Part shown: positions 2 to 16,078 of the stretch, piece by piece | Layout of the letters: each line of letters opens with the position of its first letter | How positions within the stretch are numbered: the first letter of the stretch is position 1 | Assembly: GCF_003675855.1 (NCBI RefSeq) | Contig: NZ_RCIH01000002.1 | Span: 124,001-188,000, forward strand | Length of the DNA stretch: 64,000 nt | Direction of reading: 5' to 3' | DNA from: Halostella salina | GTDB taxonomy: Archaea; Halobacteriota; Halobacteria; Halobacteriales; Natronoarchaeaceae | Program-made: the position numbers and the translations under genes | Notes under the pieces: generated by a model | The model's database searches: none | Seen by the model: only the letters and a program-made list of their open reading frames with translations | What the model was told of the DNA's origin: nothing

Positions 2-1195
2 CGGACCGTCTCCACTCGGCGCGGTCGTCGTGGGTTCCTGAAGCTCACCGGCGGCGTGACCGGCGCGGCCGCGCTCGCGGGCTGTCTCGGGAACGACGAC
101 GAGGGGTCGACGTACTCGCGGGAGGGGTCGATCCCCGACGCCAAGACGTACGCCGCCGACGAGCTGTTCAACATCGAGGAGTGGCGGGGCTCCGGGCCGC
201 TGATCGACGACCGCCCCACGGAGTACGAGGGCCGGTCGATGCTCGACCTGCCGGACCTCAGGGGCGAGCTGACGATCTACCTCGGCGGCGGCGAGGGCGG
301 GCTGTACGAGAACCTGATGCGGCGGATCCAGCACACGTACCGCGACTTCACCGTCGACATCAGGAAGGCCCCCTCCTCGCAGCACGCGAACACCATCGTC
401 GAGGAGGTCAACGCCGGCCAGAGCCCGGCGGACATCTTCTGGGCGATCGACGCCGGGTCGGTCGGGATCGTCTCCGAGAACGACGCGACCGTCGAACTCC
501 CGGACCACCTCGTCTCCGAGATCCCGGACACGTACCACCCGACCGACCAGTGGGTCGGCACCATGGGCCGCGCACGGAGCATCCCGTTCAACACCAACGA
601 GTTCTCGAAGTCGGAGATCCCAAACGACATATTCACGTTCGCGCGGGATCCACGGTTCGACAACGCGATGGGCTGGGCTCCGACCTACGGCGCGTTCCAG
701 GCGTTCGTCACGGCGATGCGCCTCATCAACGGGGAGAGCGAGGCGCGCCAGTGGCTCAACGGGATGCAGGACCAGGGCGTCGGTACGTACGACAACGAAC
801 TGGTCGTCGCCAATCGGGTCGCGAGCGGCGAGTTGAACGCGGGATTCGGGAACCACTACTACTCGCGGCTCGTGTACGAGGAGCGGCCCGACGCCCCGCT
901 GGACCTCGCCTTCACGCAGGCCGACGCCGGCGCGCTCGTGAACTGCTCGGGGGCCGAGATCATCAAGAACACGCCGAACGAGACGCTGGCGGTGGACTTC
1001 ATCCACCACCTGCTCAGCATCGAGGCCCAGGAGTTCCTGACGACCCGCGGGTACGAGTACCCGCTGCTCCCGAGCATCCCGCCGGTCGGGGACCTCCCGA
1101 CGATCGACGAACTGAACCCGCCGGAGTTCGACCTCTCGCGGCTCGCGGACCTCGAACCGACGCTGCAACTCATGCGCGAGGTGGGCGTCCTGTAA
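2..1195 (+). CDS. Ferric iron ABC transporter substrate-binding lipoprotein (5' truncated)
   Basis: This is an extracellular solute-binding protein of family 1, the binding component of a ferric-iron type importer. The reading frame is open from base 2. It encodes RRGFLK followed by a hydrophobic stretch and the lipobox LAGC, so this is a Tat lipoprotein whose real start lies before the window; the GTG at 56 sits inside the signal peptide and is not the start. About 360 residues follow the lipobox cysteine, a normal length for the family. It is followed after 1 bp by the permease gene, then by the ATPase, and the siderophore operon converges on this unit. The iron assignment rests on family resemblance and context; a thiamine or sulfate-type substrate is possible. 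Confidence 0.85.
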   Translation, partial: RTVSTRRGRRGFLKLTGGVTGAAALAGCLGNDDEGSTYSREGSIPDAKTYAADELFNIEEWRGSGPLIDDRPTEYEGRSMLDLPDLRGELTIYLGGGEGGLYENLMRRIQHTYRDFTVDIRKAPSSQHANTIVEEVNAGQSPADIFWAIDAGSVGIVSENDATVELPDHLVSEIPDTYHPTDQWVGTMGRARSIPFNTNEFSKSEIPNDIFTFARDPRFDNAMGWAPTYGAFQAFVTAMRLINGESEARQWLNGMQDQGVGTYDNELVVANRVASGELNAGFGNHYYSRLVYEERPDAPLDLAFTQADAGALVNCSGAEIIKNTPNETLAVDFIHHLLSIEAQEFLTTRGYEYPLLPSIPPVGDLPTIDELNPPEFDLSRLADLEPTLQLMREVGVL

Positions 1196-1196
1196 C

Positions 1197-2849
1197 ATGT
1201 CGGTGGCCGACAGGGTAGTTGCACAGTTCGACCGCGAGGACGCCGACGGGTATCCGGTCGGTCTCACCCTCCTGAGCGGTGCGATCGCCGCGGCGGTGCT
1301 CTCGCCGCTCGCGTGGATCGTCATCCGCGTCCTGCAGGTCGACACCGACTACGCGCTGTCGATCATCGCGCGCCCGACGATCGTCGAGATCCTGGTGACG
1401 AGCCTCGGCCTCGTCGCCGCCGTCACCGGGGCGTCGATCGGCATCGGCGTGCCGCTCGCGTTCCTGACGGTGCGGACGGACCTCCCGTTCCGCCGGTTCT
1501 GGACCGTCGCCGTCGCCCTGCCGCTTGTCATCCCAAGTTACCTGGGCGCGTTCACGTTCATCTCGGCGTTCGGTCCGGGCGGGGTACTCGCGGACGCGCT
1601 CGCGCCCCTCGGCGTCGAGTCGATCCCCTCGATCTACGGGTTCTTCGGGACGACGCTCGTGCTCACGCTGTACACCTACCCCTACGTGTTCATCACCACG
1701 CGGGCGTCGCTGCTGTCGTTCGACCAGCAGCTCGTCGAGGCCGCGCGGACGCTCGGGACGACGCGCTGGGAGGCGTTCAAACGCGTGACGCTCCGGCAGC
1801 TTCTGCCCGGCATCACGTCGGGCGCGCTGCTGGTCGCGCTGTACACGCTCTCGGACTTCGGCACGCCGTCGCTCATGCGGCTGGACGTGTTCACGCGCGT
1901 CATCTTCGTCGAGTACAACACGTTCGGCCGCGAGACCGCCGCCATGCTCTCCCTGCAGCTGCTGGCGATCACCGCGGTGATCCTCGCCATCGAGTCGCGC
2001 ATCGGCGATTCGAGCCGCGGGGCCTACGTGGGGACGGGCGCGAGTTCGGGCAGCGACACGACGGTCTCACTCGGACTGTGGAAGCTGCCCGCGCTCGGGT
2101 TCTGTGCGAGCATCGTCACCCTCTGTCTCGTCGTCCCCGTCGCCGTTCTGACCAACTGGCTGCTCCGGAGCCCGAGCGGGGCGACCAGGATGGGCGGCGG
2201 GTTCGAGTGGCAGTTCGCGGTCAACTCGGTGTCGGTGTCGCTCGCGGCGGCGGTCGCCTGTGCGGCCGCCGCGGTTCCGGTCGCCTACCTCGCCGCGAGA
2301 CACCGGAGCAGGCTGTCGGAACTGTTCGACCGCGCGACGTACGTCGGCTACGCGATGCCGGGGATCGTCCTCGGGCTCGCGCTCGTGTTCTTCGGCGTCT
2401 ACTACGAGTCGTCCGTCGGGGACCTCTCGGTGTTCGGTGCCGACATCACCCCGACGCTGTACCAGACGCTCCCGCTGTTGATCTTCGCGTACGTCATCCG
2501 GTTCCTCCCGCAGGCAGTCGGCTCGACGCGGTCGTCGGTGCGGCGCGTCGACCGGAGCCTGACGGAGGCCGCACGGATGCTCGGCCGGACCCCCGCGGAG
2601 GCGTTCCGCCGGGTCACGCTCCCGCTGATCGCGCCGGGCGTGATCGGCGGCGCGGCGCTGGTCTTTCTGACGACGATGAAGGAGCTGCCCGCGACGCTCG
2701 TGTTGCACCCGACGGGCTTCGAGACGCTCGTCACGTACATCTGGAGCGTCCGCGAGTCCGGCTACTACGGGTTCGCGGCGGTCCCCGCGCTGGTGCTCAT
2801 CGTCGTCTCGGGACTCTCGATGGTCGTTATCCTTTCCCAGGAGGAGTGA
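1197..2849 (+). CDS. Ferric iron ABC transporter permease (fused, two domains)
   Basis: This 550-residue membrane protein has two binding-protein-dependent permease domains in tandem, as in FbpB/SfuB ferric importers. Each half carries an EAA loop that contacts the ATPase: EAARTLGTTRWEAFKRV in the first half and EAARMLGRTPAEAFRRV in the second. About twelve hydrophobic segments are visible. ATG 1197 follows the binding-protein stop by 1 bp, so translation is probably coupled. The ATPase gene begins 3 bp after its stop, giving a compact three-gene importer operon. Confidence 0.9.
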   Translation: MSVADRVVAQFDREDADGYPVGLTLLSGAIAAAVLSPLAWIVIRVLQVDTDYALSIIARPTIVEILVTSLGLVAAVTGASIGIGVPLAFLTVRTDLPFRRFWTVAVALPLVIPSYLGAFTFISAFGPGGVLADALAPLGVESIPSIYGFFGTTLVLTLYTYPYVFITTRASLLSFDQQLVEAARTLGTTRWEAFKRVTLRQLLPGITSGALLVALYTLSDFGTPSLMRLDVFTRVIFVEYNTFGRETAAMLSLQLLAITAVILAIESRIGDSSRGAYVGTGASSGSDTTVSLGLWKLPALGFCASIVTLCLVVPVAVLTNWLLRSPSGATRMGGGFEWQFAVNSVSVSLAAAVACAAAAVPVAYLAARHRSRLSELFDRATYVGYAMPGIVLGLALVFFGVYYESSVGDLSVFGADITPTLYQTLPLLIFAYVIRFLPQAVGSTRSSVRRVDRSLTEAARMLGRTPAEAFRRVTLPLIAPGVIGGAALVFLTTMKELPATLVLHPTGFETLVTYIWSVRESGYYGFAAVPALVLIVVSGLSMVVILSQEE

Positions 2850-2852
2850 CTC

Positions 2853-4013
2853 ATGGCACGAAACAACCACGACGGATCGCTCGCATCGCCCGAACCGGCG
2901 GCCACGGCCGCCGACCCCGACGACAGCCCCCCGCAGTCGACGGTGCTCGAACTCCGGGACCTCGTCCGCTCCTACGAGACCGAGACCGCCGTCGAGGACC
3001 TCTCGCTGTCCGTCGGCGAGGGCGAGGTGCTCACGCTCCTCGGACCGTCCGGCTGCGGCAAGACGACGACCCTGCGGCTGATCGGCGGGCTGGAACGCCC
3101 CGACGACGGGACCATCGAACTCGGTGACAGCGTCATCGCCGACGCCGGCGACACGTTCGTCCCGCCCGAGGAGCGGGGCATCGGGCTGGTGTTTCAGGAC
3201 TTCGCGCTCTTCCCGCACCTGACCGCCGCGGAGAACATCGGGTTCGGGATCGCCGAGTGGCCGGAGAGCGAGCGGCAGGCACGGATCGAGGAGATGCTCG
3301 ACCTCATCGGCATGTCGGACCACGGCGACGACCGGCCGGGCGAGCTCTCGGGGGGGCAGAAGCAGCGCGTCGCCCTCGCGCGCTCGCTCGCCCCCGAACC
3401 CGACGTGCTCCTGCTGGACGAGCCCCTCTCGAACCTCGACGTGAGCCTCCGGGTGTCCATGCGCGAGGAGATCCGCCGGATCATCGACGAGACGGACGTC
3501 ACCGCTATCTGGGTCACGCACGACCAGGAGGAGGCGCTGTCAGTCGCCGACCGCGTCGGGGTGATGCACGACGGGGAGCTCCAGCAGGTCGGCCGGCCCG
3601 AGAAGGTGTTCGAGCTGCCGGCCTCGCGGTTCGTCGCGTCGTTCCTCGGTCGCGCCGGCTTCCTCTCCGCGACCGTCGAGGACGACGTGCTCGCGACGGA
3701 CGTGGGCGACATCGACGCCGACGCGCTCGTCGGGGCCGAGCGGTCGGACTGGGAGGTGCTCCCGGACGAGGCGACGGTCGACGTGCTGGTCCGCCCCGAC
3801 GACCTTCGCGTGACCCCGACGACGCCGGAGGAGGCCGACGGCACGATCACGCGCCGCCAGTATCAGGGACCGTCGTTCATCTACCGCGTCGAGACCGAAG
3901 GCGGCGACACGATCCAGTGTCTACACAGCCACACGGAGGTGTTCGACGTGGGCAAGTCGGTCAGCGTCGACCTCGTGGCGAACCACCCGCTGGTCTGGTT
4001 CCCGGCCGAGTGA
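2853..4013 (+). CDS. ABC transporter ATP-binding protein (ferric iron type, FbpC-like)
   Basis: This is the 386-residue cytoplasmic ATPase of the importer. Walker A GPSGCGKTT lies near residue 65, the signature LSGGQKQR near 165 and Walker B LLLDEPLSNLD near 186, with a switch-region histidine in WVTHDQEEA. A C-terminal regulatory, TOBE-like region of about 120 residues follows. A 35-residue N-terminal extension rich in Pro, Ala and Asp is unlikely to be structured. The gene ends 12 bp from the convergent asparagine-synthetase-like gene. Confidence 0.9.
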   Translation: MARNNHDGSLASPEPAATAADPDDSPPQSTVLELRDLVRSYETETAVEDLSLSVGEGEVLTLLGPSGCGKTTTLRLIGGLERPDDGTIELGDSVIADAGDTFVPPEERGIGLVFQDFALFPHLTAAENIGFGIAEWPESERQARIEEMLDLIGMSDHGDDRPGELSGGQKQRVALARSLAPEPDVLLLDEPLSNLDVSLRVSMREEIRRIIDETDVTAIWVTHDQEEALSVADRVGVMHDGELQQVGRPEKVFELPASRFVASFLGRAGFLSATVEDDVLATDVGDIDADALVGAERSDWEVLPDEATVDVLVRPDDLRVTPTTPEEADGTITRRQYQGPSFIYRVETEGGDTIQCLHSHTEVFDVGKSVSVDLVANHPLVWFPAE

Positions 4014-4025: not shown

Positions 4026-5852
4026 TCACCCGTCGACGACCCGTCGCGTGAGCGGCATCGAGAGGACGGTCACCAGCCGGTACAGTTCCTCGCCGGCGTC
4101 TATCTCGCCCGCCCGGTGGCGGCGGTACGTCTCCCGCACCGCCGCCCAGTCGACGCCGGGCAGTCGCCGCCCGGTCGCCTCGTGTCGCTCCAGGGCCCGA
4201 CCCACGAAGTCGTCGCCCCTGACGACCTCGTCCTTGTCCTGCCAGGGCCCCTGAGTCCGGTACGACGCGTCGCCGAACTTGTCGGCCAGGTTCACCGCGC
4301 GGTTGCCGACGACGTGTGCCGCCTTCGGGGACGACAGCGGGACGCGCGTGGAGGCGTGGGGGATCGTCGCGAGCGACCCGTCGAGCCGCTCGATCGCGCG
4401 GTGCAGCGGGTCGCGGCGCAGCCGGTACTTCAGCGGCATCGAGAGCGCCAGGTCGACCAGCCGGCGGTCGAGAAACGGGTTCCGGGTCGGGACGATCTGG
4501 AGGGCGCTGAACAGGTCGAATCCGATCCCGTTCGTGATGGGGTACAGCGTGGAGCTGAGGCTCAGCTGCTCGACCGACTCGTAGCCGACGCCGTGGAACT
4601 CGACGCCGCTCCCCGCGGCGCGGATGTTGTCGGCGAGGATCTCGCCGAGCGGTGCCGAGTCGAGGAAGTCCGGGTCGCGCGTCGGCCCCGATGCCACCTG
4701 GTCGCGCACGAAGTCGTCGGGGGTCGAGGGCAGGCACGCCCGCGGGAGCCAGACCTGCACATCGAACGGCAGCCGAACCGTCGCCTGCGACACGCTCCAG
4801 GCCCCGAAGAGGTCGTCGCTGTACAGCCCGGTCAGCAGCGTGTCGACGTCGTCGGCGATCCCCTCGGCGAACCCGAGCGCGTGGCCCGTGTGGAACGGGC
4901 CGACGAACTCCTGGACGGGCGCGGCCCGCTCCAGCAGCGTCTCGTGGTAGCCAAGGCCCCGCTCCAGCAGCTCGAACCGAGACCCGGCGGCGTCGGCCGC
5001 CCGCTTGGCGACGCGCGCCTCGCGGTTCCACCCGTCGCCCAGGTGGAACGACGCGGGCGGCTCGTCCGCGGCCGCCAGCACGGCCCGGGAGTCGCTCCCG
5101 CCGCTCAGCAGGAGACCGTGGTCGCGGTCGTCGCCCGTCCGGTCGGCGACGGCCCGCTCGAACCGGTCCGCCAGCTCCCGCACGAAGTAGGAGAACGACC
5201 TGTCTTTCGGCCGGTATCTCGGCTCCCAGTAGCGGTGCCGGTCGACGCCGCCGCCCCCGATATCGTAGGTCAGGACCGTCGCCGGCCCGAGCTGTTCGAC
5301 GCCCTCGACGGGCGTCTTCGTGCCGAACGTCCGCCGGCAGCGGAGGTACTCGGCGAGGTACCGCTCGTCGAACGCCGGGTCGAACCCGGGGAGGTCGGGC
5401 ACCGTCTGGACGCTGGTCGAGACGGCGAGGCCGTCATCGGTTCGGGCGTAGTACAGCGGCCGCGCGCCGAGGCGGTCGATGAAAAACGAGACGCTGCCGT
5501 CGTCGGGGTCGTAGCGCAGTCCGACGAACTCGCCGTCGAGCCGCTCGACGAACTCCATGCCGTGCTCGTCGTACTGGCCGGCACACACCCGCGCCGTCTC
5601 CGCCGGATCGACCGACCGCCGGCCGCCGCGCTCGTCCGTGACGCTGTACACCTCGCCCCACACCCACACGAGCGACCCGTCGGCCGCCTCGGCCGGCTGG
5701 TCGACCGCCGTCCCCTCGTGGAACGCCGACCGCACCGCGATCTCCCGGCCGCGGTAGGCGTCGCTCGTCTCGCCGCCGGGGACCGTCTCCGGGACCGTCT
5801 CGACCTCGACCGAGTCGGCCGCGTCGCCGAACACGCCGGACAGGCCGACCAT
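4026..5852 (-). CDS. Asparagine-synthetase-like amide ligase, glutaminase-dead, in siderophore operon
   Basis: The 608-residue protein has the two-domain layout of AsnB. An N-terminal Ntn (class II amidotransferase) fold spans about residues 1-180, including a LDGEFVGLRYD-type strand and LGARPLYYA. A C-terminal synthetase domain has the PP-loop SGGSDS at 250-255 and a second ATP-site motif TGLYSDDLFGAW near 340. The catalytic Cys at position 2 of AsnB is absent: the protein begins MVGLSGVFG. It therefore should not release ammonia from glutamine; beta-lactam synthetase shows the same loss and joins an amine within its substrate. It starts 15 bp after the monooxygenase stop, as the third gene of a siderophore operon. 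A role in forming the siderophore's amide bond is inferred, and glycan modification is the alternative. Confidence 0.75.
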   Translation of the reverse strand: MVGLSGVFGDAADSVEVETVPETVPGGETSDAYRGREIAVRSAFHEGTAVDQPAEAADGSLVWVWGEVYSVTDERGGRRSVDPAETARVCAGQYDEHGMEFVERLDGEFVGLRYDPDDGSVSFFIDRLGARPLYYARTDDGLAVSTSVQTVPDLPGFDPAFDERYLAEYLRCRRTFGTKTPVEGVEQLGPATVLTYDIGGGGVDRHRYWEPRYRPKDRSFSYFVRELADRFERAVADRTGDDRDHGLLLSGGSDSRAVLAAADEPPASFHLGDGWNREARVAKRAADAAGSRFELLERGLGYHETLLERAAPVQEFVGPFHTGHALGFAEGIADDVDTLLTGLYSDDLFGAWSVSQATVRLPFDVQVWLPRACLPSTPDDFVRDQVASGPTRDPDFLDSAPLGEILADNIRAAGSGVEFHGVGYESVEQLSLSSTLYPITNGIGFDLFSALQIVPTRNPFLDRRLVDLALSMPLKYRLRRDPLHRAIERLDGSLATIPHASTRVPLSSPKAAHVVGNRAVNLADKFGDASYRTQGPWQDKDEVVRGDDFVGRALERHEATGRRLPGVDWAAVRETYRRHRAGEIDAGEELYRLVTVLSMPLTRRVVDG

Positions 5853-5867
5853 CTCAATCGCCGCCGG

Positions 5868-7220
5868 TCATTTCGGGGACGGGTTCTCGGCGGGGCGCGC
5901 CCCGCGGTCGGCGACGAAGTCGTCGACCTTGAAGCTCTGGAAGGGGTCCGCGCCGGGCAGCTCGTAGACCGCATCGTCGGCGACGGCGTTGACGATGGTG
6001 GCGTTGCGGTACGGGCCGAGGCCGAGGTCCGGCGCGTTGATGCCGTGGGAGTGCAGTTCCGCGTTCTGGACGAATATCTCGCCCGGGAGCCCGTCGGTCT
6101 CCACGCGGTAGTCCCGCGTGATCTCGAGCCGGCCCTGATCGTCGCGCCGGATCCGGTCCTCGAGCGGGTCGAGGAACGGCGGGTCGGTTCTCGTGTACCC
6201 GGTCGCCAGGACGACCACCTCGCTGTCGAGGACGAACCGCTCGTCCTCCTGCCACTGCTCGCAGACCAGCTGGTAGTCGTCCGAGCGCGGGCTGGCGGAC
6301 CCGATGTCGGTGACCTCGGTCGCCGCGATCAGCCCCACGTCGGGCTCGGCGTCGCCGATGGAGTTGCGGTAGAGCGCGTCGTAGATCTTCGCGCTCGTGG
6401 TCTCGTCGATCCCCTTGTAGAGCTGGTCCTGCTTGCCGCGGATCTCGTCTTTGGTCTCCTGGTCCAGGTCGTAGAAGTAGTCGATGTACTCCGGCGTGTA
6501 GATCATGTGGCCGAGCTTGGCGTCGGCCATCTGGAAGAAGCCTCGCGACCGGGTGATCCAGTCGAGGCTGTACTCGTGGTCGGACTGGCGTTCGAGGAGG
6601 TCGCGGAACACCTCCGCCGCGCTCTGTCCGGAGCCGACGATCGTGACCGACTCGGCGTCGAGACACCGATCCCGGTTGTGGAGGTACGACGCCGAGTGGA
6701 ACACGTCGCGGCCGAAGGCGTCCCGGAACTGCTCGGGGACGTGGCGCTGGGTCCCGATCCCCATGACCACGTCATCCGCGGCGTAGCTCGTCTGCTCGCC
6801 CGTGACGGGGTCGACCGTCTCGACGACGAACACGTCGCCGTCCTCGCGCACGTCGGTGACCTGCCGGTCGAACTGCAGCGTCGGCAGCTGGTCGGCCACC
6901 CACCGGCAGTACTCGTTGTACTCGCGGCGGGGGATGAAAAACTCCTCGTAGAAGTAGAACTCGTAGAGGCGGTTCCGCTCGCGGAGGTAGCTGAGGTAGC
7001 TGTAGGGGTTCGACGGGTCGACCATCGTCACGAGGTCCGCGAGGAACGGGACCTCGAGGGTGGTCCCCTCGATCAGCATCCCCTCGTGCCAGTTGAACTC
7101 CGGCTCCTGTTCGAGAAAGGCCACGTCGAGGTCGGCCGGCGCGTCGTCCAGCAGCGCCGCGAGGCCGAGGTTGAACGGCCCGACGCCGATGCCGACGAGG
7201 TCGTGGACGCGGTCGGTCAT
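5868..7220 (-). CDS. Lysine/ornithine N-monooxygenase (siderophore biosynthesis)
   Basis: This 450-residue flavin-dependent N-hydroxylase belongs to the IucD/RhbE/PvdA/SidA family. It hydroxylates the side-chain amine of lysine or ornithine, the first step to hydroxamate siderophores. The N-terminal FAD motif GIGVGPFNLGLA is at residues 10-21, the NADPH motif GSGQSAAE lies near 197, and the late ATGY motif typical of the family is present. Its ATG overlaps the TGA of the acyltransferase gene by 4 bp (ATGA), so the two are translationally coupled. Whether lysine or ornithine is the substrate cannot be read from the sequence; lysine is the more usual partner of this type of acyltransferase. Confidence 0.92.
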   Translation of the reverse strand: MTDRVHDLVGIGVGPFNLGLAALLDDAPADLDVAFLEQEPEFNWHEGMLIEGTTLEVPFLADLVTMVDPSNPYSYLSYLRERNRLYEFYFYEEFFIPRREYNEYCRWVADQLPTLQFDRQVTDVREDGDVFVVETVDPVTGEQTSYAADDVVMGIGTQRHVPEQFRDAFGRDVFHSASYLHNRDRCLDAESVTIVGSGQSAAEVFRDLLERQSDHEYSLDWITRSRGFFQMADAKLGHMIYTPEYIDYFYDLDQETKDEIRGKQDQLYKGIDETTSAKIYDALYRNSIGDAEPDVGLIAATEVTDIGSASPRSDDYQLVCEQWQEDERFVLDSEVVVLATGYTRTDPPFLDPLEDRIRRDDQGRLEITRDYRVETDGLPGEIFVQNAELHSHGINAPDLGLGPYRNATIVNAVADDAVYELPGADPFQSFKVDDFVADRGARPAENPSPK

Positions 7221-7804
7221 GCGACCGCCCCCTCGAACCGCTCGCGGTCACAGAACATGAGCAGCCCCGTCTTGTCGGGCAGGTCGACCTCGCGCTGGGC
7301 CTCGAACCCGCACTTCTCGAACACGCGGATGGCCCGGTCGTTCCGGGCGTCCGGTTCCGTGACGACCCGCCGCGTCTCGGGGTGTCGGAACTGGAAGTCG
7401 ACCATCGCCCGCACCAGCGGTGCCCCGTACCCCTCGCCGAGGTACTCGCGGGGCCCGATGAGCAGGTGGATCCCCCGGTCGGCCGGGTCCGCGTCGTAGT
7501 AGTCGCCGATGCGGTCGCGGTCGGCCCAGTACGACTCCCAGTAGCTCATCGGCGTGTGGTCGAGGGAGCCGATGTACAGCGTCTGGTCCTCGTTCGCGGC
7601 GCGCTCGGCGATCGTGTCCCGAACCACCGGGAGCGGGTCGTTCTGCTCCCAGTACGGGAGCACGTGCTCGCTGTTGAGCCACGTGTGGAGGCGGCCGAGG
7701 TCGCGGTCGAGGTCGACCTCGCGGAAGCCGATCCGCTTCCCGGTGTCGGGGTCGGTCGTGAGGTAGCTGTATTCCGAACGCACTGTCTCCTGTGGCCCGC
7801 TCAT
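7217..7804 (-). CDS. Siderophore GNAT acyltransferase (IucB/RhbD-like)
   Basis: This 195-residue GNAT-fold enzyme resembles N-hydroxylysine acetyltransferases. These form the hydroxamate by moving an acyl group from acyl-CoA to the N-hydroxyl amine. The YWESYW motif and the LLIGPREYLGEGYGAPLVRAM block, containing the CoA-binding loop, are typical, as is the FEKCGF motif near the end. The ATG at 7804 overlaps the TGA of a small upstream ORF. The monooxygenase start overlaps its stop. It is the first recognisable enzyme gene of the siderophore operon. Confidence 0.9.
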   Translation of the reverse strand: MSGPQETVRSEYSYLTTDPDTGKRIGFREVDLDRDLGRLHTWLNSEHVLPYWEQNDPLPVVRDTIAERAANEDQTLYIGSLDHTPMSYWESYWADRDRIGDYYDADPADRGIHLLIGPREYLGEGYGAPLVRAMVDFQFRHPETRRVVTEPDARNDRAIRVFEKCGFEAQREVDLPDKTGLLMFCDRERFEGAVA

Positions 7805-7881
7805 GCCGGATCCCTCCGTCGACCCGCCCGCTCCTGCACGGACCGGACTGGGGTCCGCGTCGGTTCCGTGTGTGCCTTCAT
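7801..7881 (-). CDS. Possible 26-aa leader ORF of the siderophore operon
   Basis: An ATG at 7881 opens a 26-codon frame whose TGA (7801-7803) lies inside the ATGA of the acyltransferase start at 7804. The peptide begins MKAHTEPTRTP and ends GRRRDPA; it is rich in arginine, unlike the acidic proteins around it. Its ATG is 26 bp after the end of the operator-like site, about where a transcript start is expected. No homology is recognised. It could be a coupled leader peptide or a chance frame in the 5' untranslated region. Confidence 0.35.
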   Translation of the reverse strand: MKAHTEPTRTPVRSVQERAGRRRDPA

Positions 7882-7906: not shown

Positions 7907-7927
7907 TTTTTAGGCCAGCCTTAAAAA
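7907..7927 (-). promoter_or_regulatory. Operator-like palindrome A, siderophore operon promoter
   Basis: On the plus strand the core reads TTTTTAGGC-CA-GCCTTAAAAA, an imperfect palindrome 103 bp before the acyltransferase start and 26 bp before the leader ORF. It overlaps AT-rich sequence suited to the minus-strand TATA element. It matches three other sites in this window (9185, 17273, 17386) and resembles TTAGG-type operators of DtxR-family iron repressors. Confidence 0.65.
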
Positions 7928-7975: not shown

Positions 7976-9100
7976 CTACTGTTGGATCGCTACGACTTCC
8001 CCCGACACCGAGACGGTTCCGAGGTCGAGGCCGATGGTGGTGCCCTCCCGGAGCGGACGCGTCCGGAAGCGGAGGCCGTCGCCGGTCGCCCGCGCCCGCA
8101 GTTCGACGGTGAGGTACACGTCCTCGTTCCGGGGATGCTCGCGCTCGTAGATGTTGCCGTCGTCGCTGGTGAGGACGACCGAGGCCGGTTCGGTCCGGAC
8201 GTCCGTGACGCGGGCGACCGTCACGTTGTCCCGCCGGTCGACCATCCCCGCCTCGATCCCGTCGGCGATCTCCGGCCCGACGTTCGTCGCCTTCACGACG
8301 ACGGTCCGCTCGACCGGCCTGCCGGGCACCGAGGCGTTCCCCCACCGCGTCACCACGCCGGAGAAGGCGTAACGGTCGGTCCGGAACTCGATCGTCCGGT
8401 CGAGCAGCACCCGCCTGTCCCCGAAGTAGGTGTCGCCGCCGTAGCGGACCGTCCGCAGGGTGAGCCCGACGGCGTCGGTCCCGTTCGTCCGGTTCATCCG
8501 CGGGGTGACGACCGACCGCTCGACCGTCGCCACCGCCCGGCCGTCGATCCGGTACTCGTCGCCCGGCGAGACGAGGTCGGCCGTCGACCGGCTCAGGTCG
8601 GCCCGCACGAGCACGGGGAGCGTGCCGGTGTCCAGCGTCTCGCCCTCGGCGTCAAGCGCCAGCACCTCGCCGCGCACGTCGTACCTGGACGTCGCGACGT
8701 CGATGGCCTCGCCCCGCCGGACCGGCACGCCCGCGAACTCGAAGGTCTCCCCGCTCCCGTCGCGGTCGACGAGCCTGCCGTCGACGCGGACCCGGGCGAC
8801 GACGGAGACGTTCCGCCCGTCAGCCGGCCCCACGTACGTGTCCGTGACCGTGAGGTTGGTCCCGTCGTCGCCGGTCGCCACGTCGCCTTCGGAGATGCGC
8901 TCGGCGACCGCCGGCGAGCGCTCGCCGAGGTCGACGGTCGCGTAGCGCGTCGCCGGTTCGCCGTCCTCGCCGCCGAAGGGAACGGCGTACACGACGCCGG
9001 CGGCGACCGCCCCGAGGACGACCAGCACGACGAGCGCGTCGTAGACGTTGACGCGGCCGAACAGGCGGCCGTCCTCGTCGATGGGCGTCACGGCTGGCAC
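7976..9100 (-). CDS. DUF4330 family membrane-anchored protein
   Basis: The 374-residue protein starts with a short cytoplasmic segment (IDEDGRLFGRVN), one transmembrane helix (about residues 22-42), then a large outside region of repeated beta-rich units (DVRGEVLALD, FSGVVTRWG). This matches DUF4330, a family of unknown function often found beside exopolysaccharide genes. The start is GTG at 9100; no nearer ATG fits. A TATA element at 9177-9184 directly next to operator-like site B would serve this gene. It is divergent from the ABC exporter. Confidence 0.75.
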   Translation of the reverse strand: MPAVTPIDEDGRLFGRVNVYDALVVLVVLGAVAAGVVYAVPFGGEDGEPATRYATVDLGERSPAVAERISEGDVATGDDGTNLTVTDTYVGPADGRNVSVVARVRVDGRLVDRDGSGETFEFAGVPVRRGEAIDVATSRYDVRGEVLALDAEGETLDTGTLPVLVRADLSRSTADLVSPGDEYRIDGRAVATVERSVVTPRMNRTNGTDAVGLTLRTVRYGGDTYFGDRRVLLDRTIEFRTDRYAFSGVVTRWGNASVPGRPVERTVVVKATNVGPEIADGIEAGMVDRRDNVTVARVTDVRTEPASVVLTSDDGNIYEREHPRNEDVYLTVELRARATGDGLRFRTRPLREGTTIGLDLGTVSVSGEVVAIQQ

Positions 9101-9184
9101 CTCCCCCGAACTGTGGTCGTATCCATGGTTCCGTCTCGAACTACCCGTGGGTTTCCGGGGCTCCGTAAAAGCCTTTCATATATA

Positions 9185-9201
9185 GTTTGGCGCACCTAAA
9201 G
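9185..9201. promoter_or_regulatory. Operator-like palindrome B between DUF4330 gene and ABC exporter
   Basis: GTTTGGCGCACCTAAAG lies 84 bp before the DUF4330 start and 90 bp before the exporter start. It touches the ATATAT element at 9177-9184, which is placed to be the TATA box of the DUF4330 gene. The second promoter, with a TTTATA at 9245-9250, faces the exporter. It is the same motif as sites A, C and D. Confidence 0.6.
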
Positions 9202-9291: not shown

Positions 9292-11094
9292 ATGCCGGAC
9301 TCCGACACGCCGTCCGCCACGCGACGGGAGAAACTCGACGCGCTGTACAGCGTGCTGAAGTACGATCCGAAGCTCACCGCGACGATCGTCGGGCTCGGGA
9401 TCGTCGCCGCCGTGCTCGAAGGCGTCGGGCTGAGTTTCATCCTCCCGATCATCGAACTGGTCCAGTCGGAGGGCCAGCCCGCGCAGGGCGGGATCGCCGG
9501 GCTGTTCGCGTCCGTTTACCGGGCGCTGAACGTGCCGCTGTCGCTCGGCACGGCGGTTCTGGGCGTCGCGGCCGTCATGACCGTCCGGTTCACGGCGAGC
9601 TTCCTCGTCGCGTGGTTCCGCGAGACGCTCCGCATGTCCTACATCCGGAACCTCCAGACCGAGGCGTTCGGGAACGCCTTCGACGCCGACATCTCGTACC
9701 TCGACGAGACGGGGTCGGACGACGTGTTGAACGCGATCATCACCCAGACCTTCTACGCCGGGCAGGCGATCGAGCGGCTGGTCGTGTTCGTCGAGCAGTC
9801 GTTCCTCGGCCTCGTCTACGGGGTCATCGCGTTCGTCATCTCGCCGACGCTCACGCTCGTCACGGCCGTCGTCCTCGGCGGGGTGACGGTGCTGTTGCGC
9901 GTCGTCGTCGAGCCGGGGTACGACATCGGCGACAGGGTCGCGGACGCGAACGAGCGCCGGCAGGAGGCCGCCCAGGCCGGCACCCAGGGGATGCGGGAGA
10001 GCCGGGTCTTCGGCCTCGTCGACGAGCTGTACGGGGACTTCGTCGACGCGGTCGACAAGTACACCCGGGCCCGCGTCAAGCTCCGCCGCAACGAGGCGGC
10101 GATCGACAACGCCTACCAGCTGGCGGTCGCCGTCTCCGTGTTCGCCCTCATCTACGGCTCGCTCACGTACGCCGACCTGACGCTCAGTTCGCTCGGCCTG
10201 TTCCTGTTCGCGATGTTCCGGCTCGGACCGAAGGCGAGCCGGGCGAACGAGCTGTTCTACCGGATCGAGCAGGACCTCCCGCACCTCGTTCGCACCCGGC
10301 AGTTCACGCGCGAGCTCGCGAACAACGCCGAGCCGGAGGCCGCCCGCCACGAGGTGCCGGAGACGGTCGAGTCGGTCGCCTTCGACGACGTGCACTTCGC
10401 CTACGACGACGGGGACGAGGTGCTCCGGGGCGTCGACTTCTCTGCGGAGCGGGGGGAGTTCGTCGCCTTCGTCGGCCAGTCGGGCGCGGGGAAATCGACC
10501 GTGGTCTCGCTGCTCGCACGGATGCACGAACCGACCGACGGCGAGGTCCGCGCGAACGGCGTCCCGATCGGCGGGATGGACATCGACGAGTGGCGCGACC
10601 GCGTCGCCGTCGTCGGCCAGGACCCGTACATCTTCGACGACACGCTCCGGTACAACCTGACGATCGCTGACCGGGACGCTTCCCGGGCGGAGATCGAGCG
10701 AGTCTGTGAGATCGCCCGCGTCGACGAGTTCCTCGACGACCTCCCGGACGGGTACGACACGCAGGTCGGCGACGACGGCGTCCGGCTCTCGGGCGGGCAG
10801 AAGCAGCGCGTCGCCATCGCCCGGGCGCTGCTCGACGACGCGGACGTGTTGCTGCTCGACGAGGCGACCAGCGACCTGGACTCGAACCTGGAGCGGGAGG
10901 TGCAACGCGGCATCGAGACCATGGACCGGGAGTACATCGTCGTCACCGTCGCCCACCGGCTGACGACGGTCCGGAACGCGGACCGCATCTACACGCTGGA
11001 GGAGGGGACGGTTTCGGAGGCCGGCGACCACGAGGAACTCGTCGCCAACGACGGGGAGTACGCCGACCTCTACGCGACTCAGACCGGCAGGTGA
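9292..11094 (+). CDS. ABC exporter, fused permease and ATPase (MsbA-like)
   Basis: This 600-residue type I ABC exporter has about six membrane helices in residues 30-330 and an ATPase domain after 360. Walker A GQSGAGKST is near residue 394, the signature LSGGQKQR near 498, Walker B VLLLDEATSDLD near 520 and the H-loop in TVAHRLTT. A full exporter would act as a homodimer and move lipid-linked glycan, lipid or a small product outward. Context offers two candidates: the surface glycan made by the neighbouring transferases, or the siderophore, because the promoter region shares the putative iron operator. The gene is convergent with the glycosyltransferase at 11102. Confidence 0.88.
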   Translation: MPDSDTPSATRREKLDALYSVLKYDPKLTATIVGLGIVAAVLEGVGLSFILPIIELVQSEGQPAQGGIAGLFASVYRALNVPLSLGTAVLGVAAVMTVRFTASFLVAWFRETLRMSYIRNLQTEAFGNAFDADISYLDETGSDDVLNAIITQTFYAGQAIERLVVFVEQSFLGLVYGVIAFVISPTLTLVTAVVLGGVTVLLRVVVEPGYDIGDRVADANERRQEAAQAGTQGMRESRVFGLVDELYGDFVDAVDKYTRARVKLRRNEAAIDNAYQLAVAVSVFALIYGSLTYADLTLSSLGLFLFAMFRLGPKASRANELFYRIEQDLPHLVRTRQFTRELANNAEPEAARHEVPETVESVAFDDVHFAYDDGDEVLRGVDFSAERGEFVAFVGQSGAGKSTVVSLLARMHEPTDGEVRANGVPIGGMDIDEWRDRVAVVGQDPYIFDDTLRYNLTIADRDASRAEIERVCEIARVDEFLDDLPDGYDTQVGDDGVRLSGGQKQRVAIARALLDDADVLLLDEATSDLDSNLEREVQRGIETMDREYIVVTVAHRLTTVRNADRIYTLEEGTVSEAGDHEELVANDGEYADLYATQTGR

Positions 11095-11101
11095 GCGCCG
11101 G

Positions 11102-12322
11102 CTACCGCGTCATCGCGCGCTCGTACAGCGCCTCGAACTGCGGGACGACGGTCTCGGCCCGGTAGGCGTCGACCTCGCGCCCGGCCGCCGCGGAGCGGTC
11201 GGCCAGCCCGTTGCCGTCGAACAGGGCACACAGCGCGTCGACGAACCCCTCGACGGAGCCGTCGGTGGTGACGCCGCCCTCGCCGACGATGTCGGCGACG
11301 CTGCCCACGTCGCTCGCGACGACCGGCGTCCCCGTCGCCAGCGCCTCGAGGAACACGCGGCCGAACGGCTCGTCCCACCGGCCGGGGTAGACGAAGCAGT
11401 CGTGGGCCGCGAACACGCCGGGAAGCTCGTCGTTGGGCACCCAGCCGGTGAACGTGACGCGGTCCGCGACCCCGCCGTCCGCGGCCTGTGCCTCCATCTT
11501 GCTCCGGAGGCCGCCGTCGCCGACGACGGTCAGCCGAACGGACGCGTCGGTCCGGTCGTTCAGTCGCGTCAGGACCGGGACGAGGCGGTCGACGCCCTTG
11601 TGCTCGTCGAGCGAGCCGACGTACAGCAGGTCGTAGGGGGCGTCGAAGTCGGACTCGTGGTCGCGGTCGAACCGGTCGTCGAGGACGTTCGGGATCACGG
11701 ACAGCCGCTCGGCGGGGAAGCCGAAGTCGGCGTACGTCGTCTCGATGTGCGGCGAGAGGGCGTGGTACGCGTCGATCCGGTCGGCCACCGCCTCGCCCTC
11801 CCGGACCAGCTTGAGGTAGCCGAGCCGGCTCGCCGAGCGGTAGAGCGGGCCGTCCTCGTCGTGGCCGCCGGCGGTCGCGAGCGAACACGCCGTGCACTTC
11901 GCCAGCCCGTTGCTGGTGCAGGGCTCGCGGTCCATGTAGCGGAGGTCGTTCTTCGGGCAGATCCCGCCGTAGGCGTTCAGCGTCACGACCGTCGCGGCGC
12001 TCGTCCGGTCGGCGACCTCCCCCATCGCGGGCATGCTGTTCATCACGTAGCTGTGCACGAGGTCGTACTCGTCGAACTCGCCCACGCGCTCCCGGAGCGC
12101 GGCGTCGAGCTGGAGCGCCGAGTGGTACGGGTAGCCGGACAGGTCGAGCGGCCGGACCGAGACGTCGCCGTCGACTGCCGCGTCGTCGGGCGGCTCGGCC
12201 CAGGGGTAGACGGTCACGTCGTGGCCGCGGTCGGCCAGCTCGAACACGATGCGCGAGGCGCTGTGCGTCGCGCCCGTGCCCTCGCCCTGCGGATAGCTCG
12301 GGTGGATGAATCCCAGCTTCAC
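11102..12322 (-). CDS. Glycosyltransferase, GT4-type (GT-B fold)
   Basis: This 406-residue retaining-type glycosyltransferase has an N-terminal donor/acceptor domain with HPSYPQGEGTGATHS. Its C-terminal GT1 domain carries LYVGSLDEHKGVDRL, the VTFTGWVPNDELP segment and the ALATGTPVVASDVGS donor-site loop. A Cys-rich stretch in the middle (CPKNDL, CTSNGLAKCTAC) resembles the small metal-binding loops seen in some GT4 enzymes. The start is GTG. The sulfatase-like gene lies upstream with a 19-bp gap, so they likely form one transcript. It probably builds the surface glycan. Confidence 0.85.
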   Translation of the reverse strand: MKLGFIHPSYPQGEGTGATHSASRIVFELADRGHDVTVYPWAEPPDDAAVDGDVSVRPLDLSGYPYHSALQLDAALRERVGEFDEYDLVHSYVMNSMPAMGEVADRTSAATVVTLNAYGGICPKNDLRYMDREPCTSNGLAKCTACSLATAGGHDEDGPLYRSASRLGYLKLVREGEAVADRIDAYHALSPHIETTYADFGFPAERLSVIPNVLDDRFDRDHESDFDAPYDLLYVGSLDEHKGVDRLVPVLTRLNDRTDASVRLTVVGDGGLRSKMEAQAADGGVADRVTFTGWVPNDELPGVFAAHDCFVYPGRWDEPFGRVFLEALATGTPVVASDVGSVADIVGEGGVTTDGSVEGFVDALCALFDGNGLADRSAAAGREVDAYRAETVVPQFEALYERAMTR

Positions 12323-12341
12323 GGCGACCCCCTCGTGGCGC

Positions 12342-13265
12342 TCATTCGGCGTACCCCAGGTCGCGCAGGCGTTCGGCGACCACGTCGTCGGCGGCGGCGT
12401 CGCGCTCCCCGGGCGTCGACTCGCTGATCGCCCGCCGGGGGCCGTCCTCGTACACCAGCCACGGCACGTCGACGAGTTCCGGGGTGTACACGCCCCGGGG
12501 GTGGCCCCACTCGCGGAACGGGATCGGGAACGCGCGCTCGCCGACCATGTTGCCGTGGTCGGCGGTCACCACCGTCTTGCCGCCGAGTTCGCGCATCGCT
12601 TCCTCGACGTGGGGGAGCGCACGGTCCAGGTTTGCGTCGTAGCACTCCCAGATATCGGATCGGTCCGCGTCGAGCCGCCCCTGCAACAGCTGCACCCAGA
12701 CGTTCTCCTCGTCGGCCTCGGCGTCGGTGAAGTCGCCGCCGTCGAAGTCGGCGTCGGCCCCGACGAAGGGGTAGTGGGGCTGCATGTAGTGGACGACGAG
12801 CCGCTTGTTCGGGTGCTCCTCGGCGGCCCGGAGCGCCCGCTCGGTGACCGTCTCGGGGAGCACCGTGCCGTGCTCGTCGCTCCAGCCGTCGTCGCGCCAC
12901 ACGTCGACGACGGCCGCGAAGCGCGCCTCGATCGACTCGCGGTGCTGGTGGAGCTGCGGGTTCGCGGTCACGTAGACGGTGTCGGCGAGGTCGCGGCCGT
13001 CGACGTTCGCCCGGAGGAACTCGACGGTGGTTGACGCCCGCGACTCGCGGCGCTCCAGCCGGCCCGGGAGGTCGGCCCTGCGCTCGAACATGTCGTAGCG
13101 ACACGCGTCGAGCACGAGCAGGTTGTCCCAGTCCGCGTCGAACGGGTCGACGCCGCCCGCGTTGCACCGCCGGAGACCGAGCCGGCGGTGGTACAGCCGG
13201 TTCGCGTGCCTGCAGAACAGGACCGGGGTGCCGATCGCACGGGAGAGTCGCGAACGCGCGTCCAT
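12342..13265 (-). CDS. Sulfatase-like / alkaline phosphatase superfamily protein
   Basis: The protein (307 residues from ATG 13265) has the fold markers of the alkaline phosphatase superfamily. LLVLDACRYD near the N-terminus supplies metal-binding Asp, and TADHGNMVGE supplies the Asp-His pair. The usual Cys/Ser-X-Pro-X-Arg sulfatase signature is absent; a Thr or Ser in RASTTVEF may be the nucleophile. It has no signal peptide. Such proteins recur in haloarchaeal glycan clusters and may transfer phosphate-linked groups rather than remove sulfate. It is in one transcript with the glycosyltransferase at 11102. Confidence 0.8.
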   Translation of the reverse strand: MDARSRLSRAIGTPVLFCRHANRLYHRRLGLRRCNAGGVDPFDADWDNLLVLDACRYDMFERRADLPGRLERRESRASTTVEFLRANVDGRDLADTVYVTANPQLHQHRESIEARFAAVVDVWRDDGWSDEHGTVLPETVTERALRAAEEHPNKRLVVHYMQPHYPFVGADADFDGGDFTDAEADEENVWVQLLQGRLDADRSDIWECYDANLDRALPHVEEAMRELGGKTVVTADHGNMVGERAFPIPFREWGHPRGVYTPELVDVPWLVYEDGPRRAISESTPGERDAAADDVVAERLRDLGYAE

Positions 13266-13387
13266 AGTCCCCATCTCGCCGAAGCGACGGGATTAGTGTT
13301 TCGCCATCCGCTCGGGCGCCGCAAGCGCCGGCCGACGCGGCGGCGCGGGAACGGAACACTGATTTCGCGCCGCCTTCCAGCCCGCGT

Positions 13388-14572
13388 ATGCACGTCCTCA
13401 CCGCGACGAACAACCTCTACCCCGACCCGGAGGCGACCGGCTCCGGGCGGTACAACTACGAGGTCGGCCGCAGGCTCGTCGAGCGGGGGCACACCGTCTC
13501 GGTCATCACCAGACGGCGCGGCGACGCGCCGGCGCGGGAGACGGTCGCGGGCATGGACGTCTATCGGTACGACGCGTCGGTCCCGCGGCTCCCGGCGACG
13601 CTGCGGGGGATCGACCGGCTGGTGGCGTCCGTCCGGGAGACGGCCCCCGTCGACCTCGTCAGCTTCCACGGCGCGCTGAGTTCGTTCGGCGTCGACCGGG
13701 CGGTCGCCGACCGGGTCCCGCGGACGTACACGGTCCACGGGCTCTGGGGGGTCGAGTACCGCGACAGGCTGGTCGACCCGAGCCGGTGGGCCGCGCCGTG
13801 GCACTGGCTCAACCGGACGCTCCGCCACCGGGTCGAGGGGCGCGTGCTCGGCCGCAGCGACGCCGCGGTCGTGCTGAGCGAGTTCATGCGCGACCGGTTG
13901 CGCGAGTTCCACCCGGACGCGCCGCCGACGGCGGTCGTCCCGGGCGGCGTCGACGCGGAGCGGTTCGCCCCGCTCGACGGCCCGGGGCCCGAGGCGTTCG
14001 ACGGGGACGGGACCGCGTTTCTCACCGTCCGCCGCCTCACCCCGCGGATGGGGCTGGAGACGCTGCTCGACGCGTTCGCTCGGCTGGCGGCCGACGGCGT
14101 CGACGCCCACCTCTACGTCGGGGGCGACGGCCCGCTGCGCGACCGGCTGGAGACCCGGGCCGACCGGCTCGGCATCGGGCGGGACGTGACGTTCCTCGGT
14201 TACGTCCCCGAGGACGACCTGGCGTCGCTGTACGCCGGAGCGGACGTGTTCGTCCTCCCGACGCTCGAACTGGAGGGGTTCGGGCTCGCGACGCTCGAGG
14301 CGCTGGCCGCCGGGACTCCGGTCGTCGGGACGCGGGCCGGCGCGACGCCGGAGATCCTCGGCGAGCTTGAGCGTCGGTCGGCGGTTCCGGAGCCCCTGCT
14401 GGTCGACGCCGGCGACGCGGACGCGCTCGCCGACCGGCTGCGGGCGTGGGCGGAGACGGCAGAGCGGGAGCGCGCGAGCGAGGCCTGTCGGTCGTACGTG
14501 ACGGAGGCGGGCTACACGTGGGCGGACGTCTGCGGTCGGCTGGAACGGCGCTTCGAGGACCTGCTGGAGTGA
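13388..14572 (+). CDS. Glycosyltransferase, GT4-type
   Basis: This 394-residue GT-B glycosyltransferase has N-terminal ATGSGRYNYEVGRRLVERGH and C-terminal FLTVRRLTPRMGLETLLDAF, VTFLGYVPEDDL and the LEGFGLATLEALAAGTPVVG donor-binding loop with the E-x7-E arrangement. It is cytoplasmic. It is divergent from the sulfatase-like gene and upstream of a small membrane protein gene 45 bp later. Confidence 0.88.
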   Translation: MHVLTATNNLYPDPEATGSGRYNYEVGRRLVERGHTVSVITRRRGDAPARETVAGMDVYRYDASVPRLPATLRGIDRLVASVRETAPVDLVSFHGALSSFGVDRAVADRVPRTYTVHGLWGVEYRDRLVDPSRWAAPWHWLNRTLRHRVEGRVLGRSDAAVVLSEFMRDRLREFHPDAPPTAVVPGGVDAERFAPLDGPGPEAFDGDGTAFLTVRRLTPRMGLETLLDAFARLAADGVDAHLYVGGDGPLRDRLETRADRLGIGRDVTFLGYVPEDDLASLYAGADVFVLPTLELEGFGLATLEALAAGTPVVGTRAGATPEILGELERRSAVPEPLLVDAGDADALADRLRAWAETAERERASEACRSYVTEAGYTWADVCGRLERRFEDLLE

Positions 14573-14617
14573 GCGGAGTATCAACAGTTATGTACGGATC
14601 GGCCGTACCCTCGACCG

Positions 14618-14887
14618 ATGGGGCAGGGACGCATCGAGCCGTTCTCCGAGTCGAAGACGTACGCCGTCGTGCGGACGCTGTACGGCTGGACGGCCAGCAG
14701 CCGGGTCCTCTCGCTGCTCGACGACGAGCGCGTGCTGTTCGGCTGCCTCGCCGGCTTCGTGCTAGCGAGCGTGGTCGCCGTGTTCCGCTCGAACCTCGGG
14801 GCCGGCGTCAAGTTCCTGAGCTTCGCGCTGCTGTTCGTCGCGCTCGCGGTGCCGATCCACCGCCTCGTCGACCCGCCGACGGAGTGA
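14618..14887 (+). CDS. Small two-helix membrane protein in glycan cluster
   Basis: This 89-residue protein has a soluble N-terminus and two hydrophobic segments at about residues 48-64 and 69-84. No family is recognised. It follows the glycosyltransferase by 45 bp. Its last 126 bp overlap the end of a convergent gene. Its hydrophobic pattern looks like a real protein, so it is kept, but only moderately surely. Confidence 0.55.
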   Translation: MGQGRIEPFSESKTYAVVRTLYGWTASSRVLSLLDDERVLFGCLAGFVLASVVAVFRSNLGAGVKFLSFALLFVALAVPIHRLVDPPTE

Positions 14888-16009
14888 CCGGTACCACGAT
14901 TCGAAGACCGGGGCGCAAAACGCCGCCAGGAGCAGCACGAACACGGACCGGTGTCTGATCGTCGTCCCGAAGTTCGAATCGATCAGCCCGTAGCCGACGA
15001 CCCCCCCGAGGTAGACGACGCCGAGAAACATCTCCACGCGGGGGTCGGTCTCGACGCCGCGAAGCGAGACGACCGCGACCACCGCGAACGCGATCAGCAG
15101 CGGCAGCGAGAGGACCGCCACCACGTCGAACGCCGACGTGACGTGCAGCGGAAACGGAGCGAACTGGAAGTAGATCGCGCGGACCGGCGCGGCCAGCAGC
15201 ACGTCCAGCCACGACTCGTACCGCATGAAATCGAGGTATGCCGCGCCGCCCGCCGAGCGGTACTGCAGCCGCGCGTTGAGCGCGTCGACGGGGAACAGGG
15301 CGGCGAACAGCGCGAACCCGGCAACGCCGACGGGGAGCGCGGCGAGCGCAAGCGATCGGAGCGACACCGTCCGGTCCGCGACCCGGTCGACCGCGGCCAC
15401 GAGCAGCGAGCCGGCCGCGCCGAGCAGCACCAGCAGGGCCAGTTCCTCACGCAGCAGGAACAGCAGGCCCCAGAGCGGCGGCGCGGTGAGCGCCCACCAG
15501 CGCCGCCCCTCGGCGACCGCCCGCACGCAGACGGCCGCGAGCGTCACGGCCAGCAGCGTCGAGAGCGCGTCGCGCATCGGGAGGCTGTTGAACAGGAACG
15601 GGAACGGCAGGAACAGCGCCACGAGCAGGAGGCCGTTCGTCGACGACAGGGGGACGTAGAGCCGCCGGGCGAGGTAGCACACCGGCAGCGGTATCAGCAC
15701 GGCCAGGAGCCCGTTGAGTATCGCCAGCGCGGTCGGGTCGGCCCCGAAGACGGCGTAGACGATCGCCTGTGCCGTGCCGAACGCGTCCAGCGGGGAGAGC
15801 GGACTCGTGTCGGCACCCCCCAGGATGCCGAGCGCCACCGAGTGGAACACGTCGATGTCCCAGTCGTACGGCAACAGCGGGAGCACGGCGACGGCGAAGA
15901 CGAGATGGCCGGCGAGGGTGACCCCGCCGGCGTATCGGTACAGCCGTCCCCGCTGCCGGCTGACGAGGGCGAACAGCAGGACGACCGCGACGGCGGCGGC
16001 GACGACCAT
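14762..16009 (-). CDS. Polytopic membrane protein of glycan cluster (polymerase or mannosyltransferase-like)
   Basis: This protein has 415 residues from ATG 16009. A longer frame extends to 16072, but the first hydrophobic helix begins right at MVVAAAVAVVLLFAL. About ten membrane helices are seen, with a large loop (YRSAGGAAYLDFMRYESWL). The pattern resembles Wzy-like polymerases or membrane glycosyltransferases; no signature fixes the reaction. The final 40 residues are charged (RHRERDEQQREAQ) and overlap the convergent gene at 14618-14887, so the tail may be longer than in homologues. Confidence 0.65.
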   Translation of the reverse strand: MVVAAAVAVVLLFALVSRQRGRLYRYAGGVTLAGHLVFAVAVLPLLPYDWDIDVFHSVALGILGGADTSPLSPLDAFGTAQAIVYAVFGADPTALAILNGLLAVLIPLPVCYLARRLYVPLSSTNGLLLVALFLPFPFLFNSLPMRDALSTLLAVTLAAVCVRAVAEGRRWWALTAPPLWGLLFLLREELALLVLLGAAGSLLVAAVDRVADRTVSLRSLALAALPVGVAGFALFAALFPVDALNARLQYRSAGGAAYLDFMRYESWLDVLLAAPVRAIYFQFAPFPLHVTSAFDVVAVLSLPLLIAFAVVAVVSLRGVETDPRVEMFLGVVYLGGVVGYGLIDSNFGTTIRHRSVFVLLLAAFCAPVFESWYRSLRRRVDEAVDRHRERDEQQREAQELDAGPEVRAEHGDHAR

Positions 16010-16078
16010 TCGGGGACGGCTATTCGCGGCCCGGACATATACCTGTCCACCGCGTCCGGGCCCGCGGACCACGGGTCG

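Follow-up and report, generated by a model that had tools for sequence, protein, structure and literature searches.

A haloarchaeal hydroxamate operon with a glutaminase-dead AsnB-like protein as its only linked ligase, and a possible role of surface glycan in its iron capture

To our knowledge, hydroxamate siderophores are completed either by non-ribosomal peptide synthetases (NRPSs) or by NRPS-independent siderophore (NIS) synthetases. Among haloarchaea, an NIS hydroxamate operon of the schizokinen type, dat-bdb-iucA-iucB-iucD-iucC, is described in Haloferax volcanii, where its regulation by iron was established by experiment (PMC7407949). Proteins of the asparagine synthetase (AsnB) family, WbpS and WbqG, make uronamides in surface glycans, and their family is named as eps_aminotran_1 (TIGR03108) (PMC7468200). 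Neither AsnB-like siderophore ligases nor glycan-bound siderophores were found in the literature searched. Here, a stretch of 64,000 nucleotides from Halostella salina (contig NZ_RCIH01000002.1, positions 124,001 to 188,000; hereafter the window) is analyzed, which bears a hydroxamate operon ending in an AsnB-like protein. There is strong genomic support for a hydroxamate pathway that is under iron control and devoid of NIS synthetase and NRPS, with the AsnB-like protein as its only linked ligase, and this enzyme probably joins the hydroxamate groups in place of a known assembling enzyme. The explanation that we favor, with a confidence falling just short of even, is that of an iron-starvation locus whose hydroxamate chelators would be fixed to a surface glycan, lipid-linked or exported, the Fe3+ being passed to an FbpABC importer.

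Open reading frames (ORFs) and profile matches define a single operon of three genes on the minus strand, in the order IucB-like GNAT N-acyltransferase (7217-7804, 195 aa; PF13523, 180 bits), flavin N-monooxygenase (5868-7220, 450 aa; PF13434, 378 bits) and AsnB-like protein (4026-5852, 608 aa; PF00733, 57 bits, and PF13537, 33 bits), the latter being a putative joiner of hydroxamate amine and carboxylate. The first two genes overlap by 4 bp and the third follows after a 15-bp gap, so that the hydroxylase-acyltransferase pair and the third gene 15 bp downstream, as proposed in the first-pass annotation, are confirmed. Its end point, 7881, corresponds to the ATG of a leader ORF of 26 codons (7801-7881, minus strand) that has an ATGA overlap with the start of the GNAT gene and sits between the GNAT and an exact iron-box palindrome, TTTAAGGCTGGCCTAAA (7908-7925). 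Leader ORFs of 18-36 codons with the same ATGA overlap, poorly conserved in sequence, are present in all nine genomes that carry this operon with its linked genes (hereafter the module). The structures nearest to the hydroxylase in the PDB are 6xbb, 5o8p and 7us3, of the DesB/DfoA/putrescine-hydroxylase type, and its alanine in FLADL, where amino-acid enzymes carry the lysine of FLKDL, matches diamine enzymes; the nearest structure to the GNAT is 2qml (BH2621). From a diamine-type hydroxylase acting with a GNAT, the expected product is an N-hydroxy-N-acyl-diamine that retains a single free amine and, in the case of an acetyl group, has no carboxylate; it must therefore be coupled to a carboxylate from elsewhere, a task for which the AsnB-like ligase would be suited.

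The module was detected in nine haloarchaeal species from at least six families, namely H. salina (G000 in our numbering), G086, Saliphagus infecundisoli (Natrialbaceae), G160, Halosimplex pelagicum (Haloarculaceae), G194 (probably of the genus Halalkalicoccus), Halorubrum saccharovorum and two Halarchaeum species. In the window genome (3.7 Mb, 99% complete), profile searches returned neither IucA/IucC (PF04183) nor the NRPS condensation domain (PF00668), the latter being also missing from each of seven module genomes. No assembler of either kind was thus found elsewhere in the window genome, and the earlier remark that neither is present to join the parts holds at this genome-wide scale. Among 391 haloarchaeal genomes surveyed, 84 contain the hydroxylase. 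IucA/IucC is absent from five of the seven module genomes that were checked whole (out of nine), G086 and G160 having it elsewhere in the genome, while it is carried by all 77 hydroxylase-positive genomes without the AsnB module (Fisher p 6.8e-7, a value that ignores shared ancestry). The AsnB-like gene recurs with IucB/IucD homologues across the nine species. The IucA/IucC genes of G086 and G160 lie apart from the module and without adjoining hydroxylase. About 33 further haloarchaeal genomes have IucA/IucC without this hydroxylase, so that NIS siderophores other than hydroxamates may be widespread.

This complementarity with IucA/IucC, together with the fact that the AsnB-like gene shares operon and iron box with IucB/IucD homologues, also speaks for the main rival to glycan attachment, a free siderophore. 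The AsnB-like protein would here replace IucA/IucC and couple the N-hydroxy-N-acyl-diamine to a small carboxylate, e.g., citrate; the product would be released and re-imported as ferric siderophore, and the glycan genes would belong to another iron-stress response. We consider it possible, though rather doubtful, since it leaves unexplained (i) the ABC exporter, the GT4 glycosyltransferase (GT) a and the sulfatase-like protein that accompany the operon in all nine loci, (ii) the boxes on glycan units and the overlap of a GT2 gene with the AsnB-like gene in two genomes, and (iii) the bare-Fe3+ type of the linked importer, all of them described below.

Regarding the diamine, strong matches to the decarboxylase type acting on 2,4-diaminobutyrate (DABA; PF00282) are lacking in G000, G160, G194 and G096, which show only weak ones, while NIS controls match strongly; G221 and G380 give stronger matches, with specificity not assigned. 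Three of the five module genomes without IucA/IucC (G000, G194 and G096) are thus also devoid of a strong match. With the decarboxylase missing, 1,3-diaminopropane made from DABA, as in H. volcanii, is disfavored as substrate in the window genome, in which no diamine source was found.

The AsnB-like protein keeps an intact PP-loop (LLLSGGSDSR), while its N terminus, MVGLSGVFG, places a valine at the Cys2 position, both features having been correctly noticed in the first-pass annotation. Neither Val2 nor SGGSDS varies among nine copies, those of the module and the paralogues taken together, and Val2 is found in all 11 module-clade rows of a wider AsnB alignment. The oxyanion-hole asparagine of NGE is also replaced, alignment with 1ct9 giving WGE with a nearly invariant tryptophan. 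Scores against TIGR01536 (100 bits, cut-off 267) and TIGR03108 (65 bits, cut-off 816.9) remain below threshold. An AlphaFold2 model (predicted local distance difference test 90.8, predicted template-modelling score 0.91) displays the complete two-domain AsnB fold, and its comparison with known structures gives VIA Z values of 27.0 for TsnB9, 25.1 for beta-lactam synthetase and 25.0 for Escherichia coli AsnB; the active-site Lys/Glu region is not reliably covered in the sequence alignments with AsnB and beta-lactam synthetase. A second copy, 68% identical, was overlooked before and is situated ~1 kb beyond the left end of the window (G000:C2:121139-122959). Two copies are present in G000 and in G086, one of them free-standing in each. 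A TnpB/IS605-like protein, recognized by eye (L063:15562-16839), adjoins the second G000 gene, likewise close to the left end of the window, as a possible trace of mobility.

The missing cysteine does not stand as a special trait, and Cys2 loss was rejected as a specific sign of the locus, since distant haloarchaeal AsnB-like proteins (~40% identity) lack it too. These form a large scattered family (L071-L082, plasmid matches H1-H15) annotated as asparagine synthase-related, some of whose genes adjoin sulfatase- or phosphodiesterase-like ones; plasmid records hold relatives below 60% identity only, and no module member. The 11 module-clade proteins form a single clade (support 100/100) with the ~40%-identity relatives outside, and 24 positions fixed in them differ in all others, which is in keeping with a distinct substrate without naming it. 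That the AsnB-like protein is a bystander from the wider family was rejected on the basis of this clade and of the iron boxes, which among AsnB loci occur only at those of the module clade, a single weak two-mismatch match being present in 203 kb of other AsnB loci.

The existence of related Cys-less proteins in haloarchaea without hydroxamate genes, together with the amidation of surface glycans by bacterial AsnB-family enzymes, would nonetheless suit a ligase that only tailors the glycan, using another amine or ammonia, the hydroxamate block being used elsewhere or yielding the end product itself. This appears unlikely, considering that the AsnB-like gene stands right behind those of IucD and GNAT in all nine loci, that its free-standing versions are preceded by iron boxes and other haloarchaeal AsnB-like loci are not, and that a monohydroxamate by itself is a weak chelator.

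Iron boxes were then compared between loci. The palindrome TTTWRGGYNNRCCWAAA, a motif that was defined from this locus and whose independent weight thus comes from the relatives and the NIS operons, occurs at six sites (seven strand matches) in the 3.7 Mb genome, three of them in this locus, with no match for its reversed-pattern control; allowing up to two mismatches, the window holds eight strand matches versus 0.07 expected. In addition to the box of the GNAT operon, exact ones precede the gene of the substrate-binding protein (SBP) of the importer (G000:C2:123934-123950, just outside the window) and that of a glycosylphosphotransferase (17386-17403), another with one mismatch precedes GT4c (17274-17291), and a degenerate one with two mismatches lies between the DUF4330 and exporter genes (9184-9201). 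Across the module loci, boxes are found before the GNAT and the SBP in nine of nine and before the WcaJ-like glycosylphosphotransferase in seven of seven, as well as before GT2 in three genomes and before the exporter, DUF4330 and GT4c in several, and both free-standing AsnB genes are preceded by one, at 103 and 105 bp. Box sites with at most two mismatches amount to 34 in 166 kb of module loci and 117 in 916 kb of NIS iuc loci, the controls showing one in 241 kb of glycan-only loci and one in the 203 kb of other AsnB loci. Nearly all of the NIS iuc operons examined start with this same box, located at the dat promoter position, and since the H. volcanii operon is regulated by iron (PMC7407949), it can be tied to this metal. 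DtxR-family iron regulators of haloarchaea are mentioned in PMC11349517, and we infer that a member of this family would bind the boxes. Two further exact boxes on G000:C8 lie near a DUF7551/DUF7552 gene (L231) and near small genes (L232).

Convergent to the hydroxamate operon, a complete FbpABC importer (56-4013, plus strand) and, beyond the operon, a group of glycan genes (9292-18922) had both been overlooked in the first reading. The importer comprises an FbpA-type SBP, a lipoprotein with a Tyr-Tyr pair in NHYYSR (56-1195), an FbpB-type fused permease (1197-2849) and an FbpC-type ATPase with a TOBE_2 domain (2853-4013), the last two being syntenic in all nine loci. The best PDB matches of the SBP are Fe3+-binding proteins, which assigns it to the FbpA type for bare Fe3+. 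The glycan genes include, on the plus strand, an ABC exporter or flippase of the HepA/MsbA/PglK-like kind (9292-11094; module copies ~70-84% identical to that of the window), a second GT4 glycosyltransferase, GT4b (13388-14572), and an exopolysaccharide polyprenyl glycosylphosphotransferase, WcaJ-like (17411-18922; PF02397, 202 bits), which scores 312 bits against TIGR03025, above its cut-off of 295.55. On the minus strand are GT4a (11102-12322), a sulfatase/AlkP-like protein with a weak PF00884 match (12342-13274), a weakly matching PMT_2-like membrane protein (PMT; 14762-16072) and GT4c (16087-17226), together with a DUF4330 protein (7976-9100) present in six of the nine loci.

Gene order is rearranged among the module loci and gene content is kept. 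FbpABC, AsnB, IucD, GNAT, ABC exporter, GT4a and sulfatase-like protein are present in nine of nine, WcaJ, GT4b, PMT and GT4c in seven, and GT2 and DUF4330 often occur as well. In all nine, FbpABC is convergent to the operon and either adjoins it or lies close by. The stop of the AsnB gene and the start of GT2 share an ATGA in G194 and H. saccharovorum, making GT2 part of one operon with GNAT-IucD-AsnB. Genes of the UDP-sugar dehydrogenase type were detected in seven of seven module genomes. The boxes and the content kept in rearranged order weaken the idea that the glycan genes are chance neighbors. Close glycan relatives without hydroxamate genes or iron boxes are found in L138 (G072) and L136 (G208), with GT4a 64% and the sulfatase-like protein 65-67% identical.

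In nine of the ten closest relatives the AsnB-like gene is present, directly after the hydroxylase. Module hydroxylases form one clade (98/94), with that of Halorussus ruber as sister (100/100). This species has a lone GNAT-IucD pair (L147:9348-11353), the sole exception found, with no AsnB, IucA/IucC, importer, glycan genes or iron box within 10 kb, and its genome contains a separate NIS cluster; the divergent neighbor of the pair is a PhyH-type dioxygenase. Within the genus Halostella, three of the four congeners surveyed lack the hydroxylase and the fourth, Halostella pelagica, has the NIS type only, so that a transfer of the locus between families is probable. The patchy spread over families and the absence of the module from the four congeners, both pointing to horizontal transfer, would also be compatible with a mobile glycan island that acquired unrelated iron genes, the neighborhood reflecting shared transfer only. 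Such hitch-hiking is nevertheless quite improbable, as the content is kept despite the rearranged order, and the same iron box stands before separate units and is missing from glycan-only relatives.

Returning to glycan attachment, the following sequence of events can be envisaged. The monooxygenase would N-hydroxylate a diamine, and the GNAT would N-acylate it to an N-hydroxy-N-acyl-diamine with a free amine left. The AsnB-like protein would then adenylate a carboxylate, most likely that of a uronic acid in the glycan, and form an amide with this amine. The glycan would be begun by the WcaJ-like enzyme and extended by glycosyltransferases, the ABC exporter would flip or export it, and the Fe3+ caught at the surface would finally be handed to the FbpABC importer. 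Uronic acids of the glycan are favored as the carboxylate because the glycan genes are under the same box, GT2 is coupled to AsnB, the linked SBP is of the bare-Fe3+ type, and WbpS/WbqG provide a precedent (PMC7468200). That the glutaminase-dead enzyme amidates glycan carboxylates with N-hydroxy-N-acyl-diamines under iron starvation, giving a polymer-bound siderophore of a new form by a third route, is put forward tentatively, the balance lying somewhat against it.

Several observations weigh against this proposal. The two AsnB copies in each of two genomes, of which the free-standing one is boxed in both G000 and G086, are reminiscent of the IucA/IucC pair used to make a free siderophore. The window genome also encodes, outside the locus, a FecB-type siderophore SBP with an exact box, which makes import of a free siderophore possible. 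The locus itself contains no gene for the formation of uronic acids. In both Halosimplex loci, the stretch covered lacks GT4b, PMT, GT4c and WcaJ, and GT4a and the sulfatase-like protein also exist where hydroxamate genes are missing, in which case there are no boxes either (G072). The co-regulation and co-inheritance with glycan genes and the naked-Fe3+ importer nonetheless make attachment to glycan at least as likely as a small free siderophore. The original idea of the AsnB-like protein as substitute synthetase is partly sustained, by the lack of NIS synthetase and NRPS, by the complementarity with IucA/IucC and by the AsnB-like gene in nine of the ten closest relatives, so that neither of the two refuting conditions set for it went against it. 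Its missing cysteine, however, belongs to a wider family, and the locus is more than a siderophore operon, since glycan genes and importer are co-regulated and co-inherited with it.

If this proposal is true, the AsnB-like protein would represent a third class of siderophore ligase and add a new substrate to the AsnB scaffold, giving a role to at least part of the Cys-less haloarchaeal family, and the product would possibly be the first siderophore built into a cell-surface glycan and thereby a new way of catching iron. H. saccharovorum, Halarchaeum rubridurum, H. pelagicum and S. infecundisoli are cultured module species available for its study.

In comparison with known systems, the module shares with the H. 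volcanii NIS operon a homologous N-monooxygenase (up to ~60% identity), a GNAT and the type of iron box at its start, while differing in the AsnB-like ligase in the operon, in the link to FbpABC and glycan genes, in the absence of IucA/IucC from five module genomes including that of the window, and in the lack of a strong DABA-decarboxylase-type match in the four genomes mentioned. Beta-lactam and carbapenam synthetases have in common with the module protein the two-domain AsnB fold (VIA Z 25.1 and 21.8) and the retained PP-loop, and exemplify an AsnB scaffold that, without glutaminase, forms an amide with a non-ammonia amine. On the contrary, identity is below 20%, the genomic role is another, and their reaction is an intramolecular ring closure, whereas the joining of two molecules is proposed here. 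TsnB9 (7ylz), a hydroxyamidotransferase that, going by its name, transfers a hydroxyamino group, is the best fold match with 509 residues aligned (VIA Z 27.0), but is only 18% identical, and no link to siderophore genes is known for it. With WbpS/WbqG the likeness resides in an AsnB-family enzyme encoded in a surface-glycan cluster and acting, as proposed for the module, on a glycan carboxylate; the module protein nevertheless stays far below the TIGR03108 cut-off (65 bits vs 816.9), lacks Cys2 and would use a hydroxamate amine instead of ammonia. Finally, all three parts of an FbpABC ferric importer are present, with the Tyr-Tyr pair of the SBP and its Fe3+-binding PDB matches, the difference being that here its genes converge with a hydroxamate operon and share its box.

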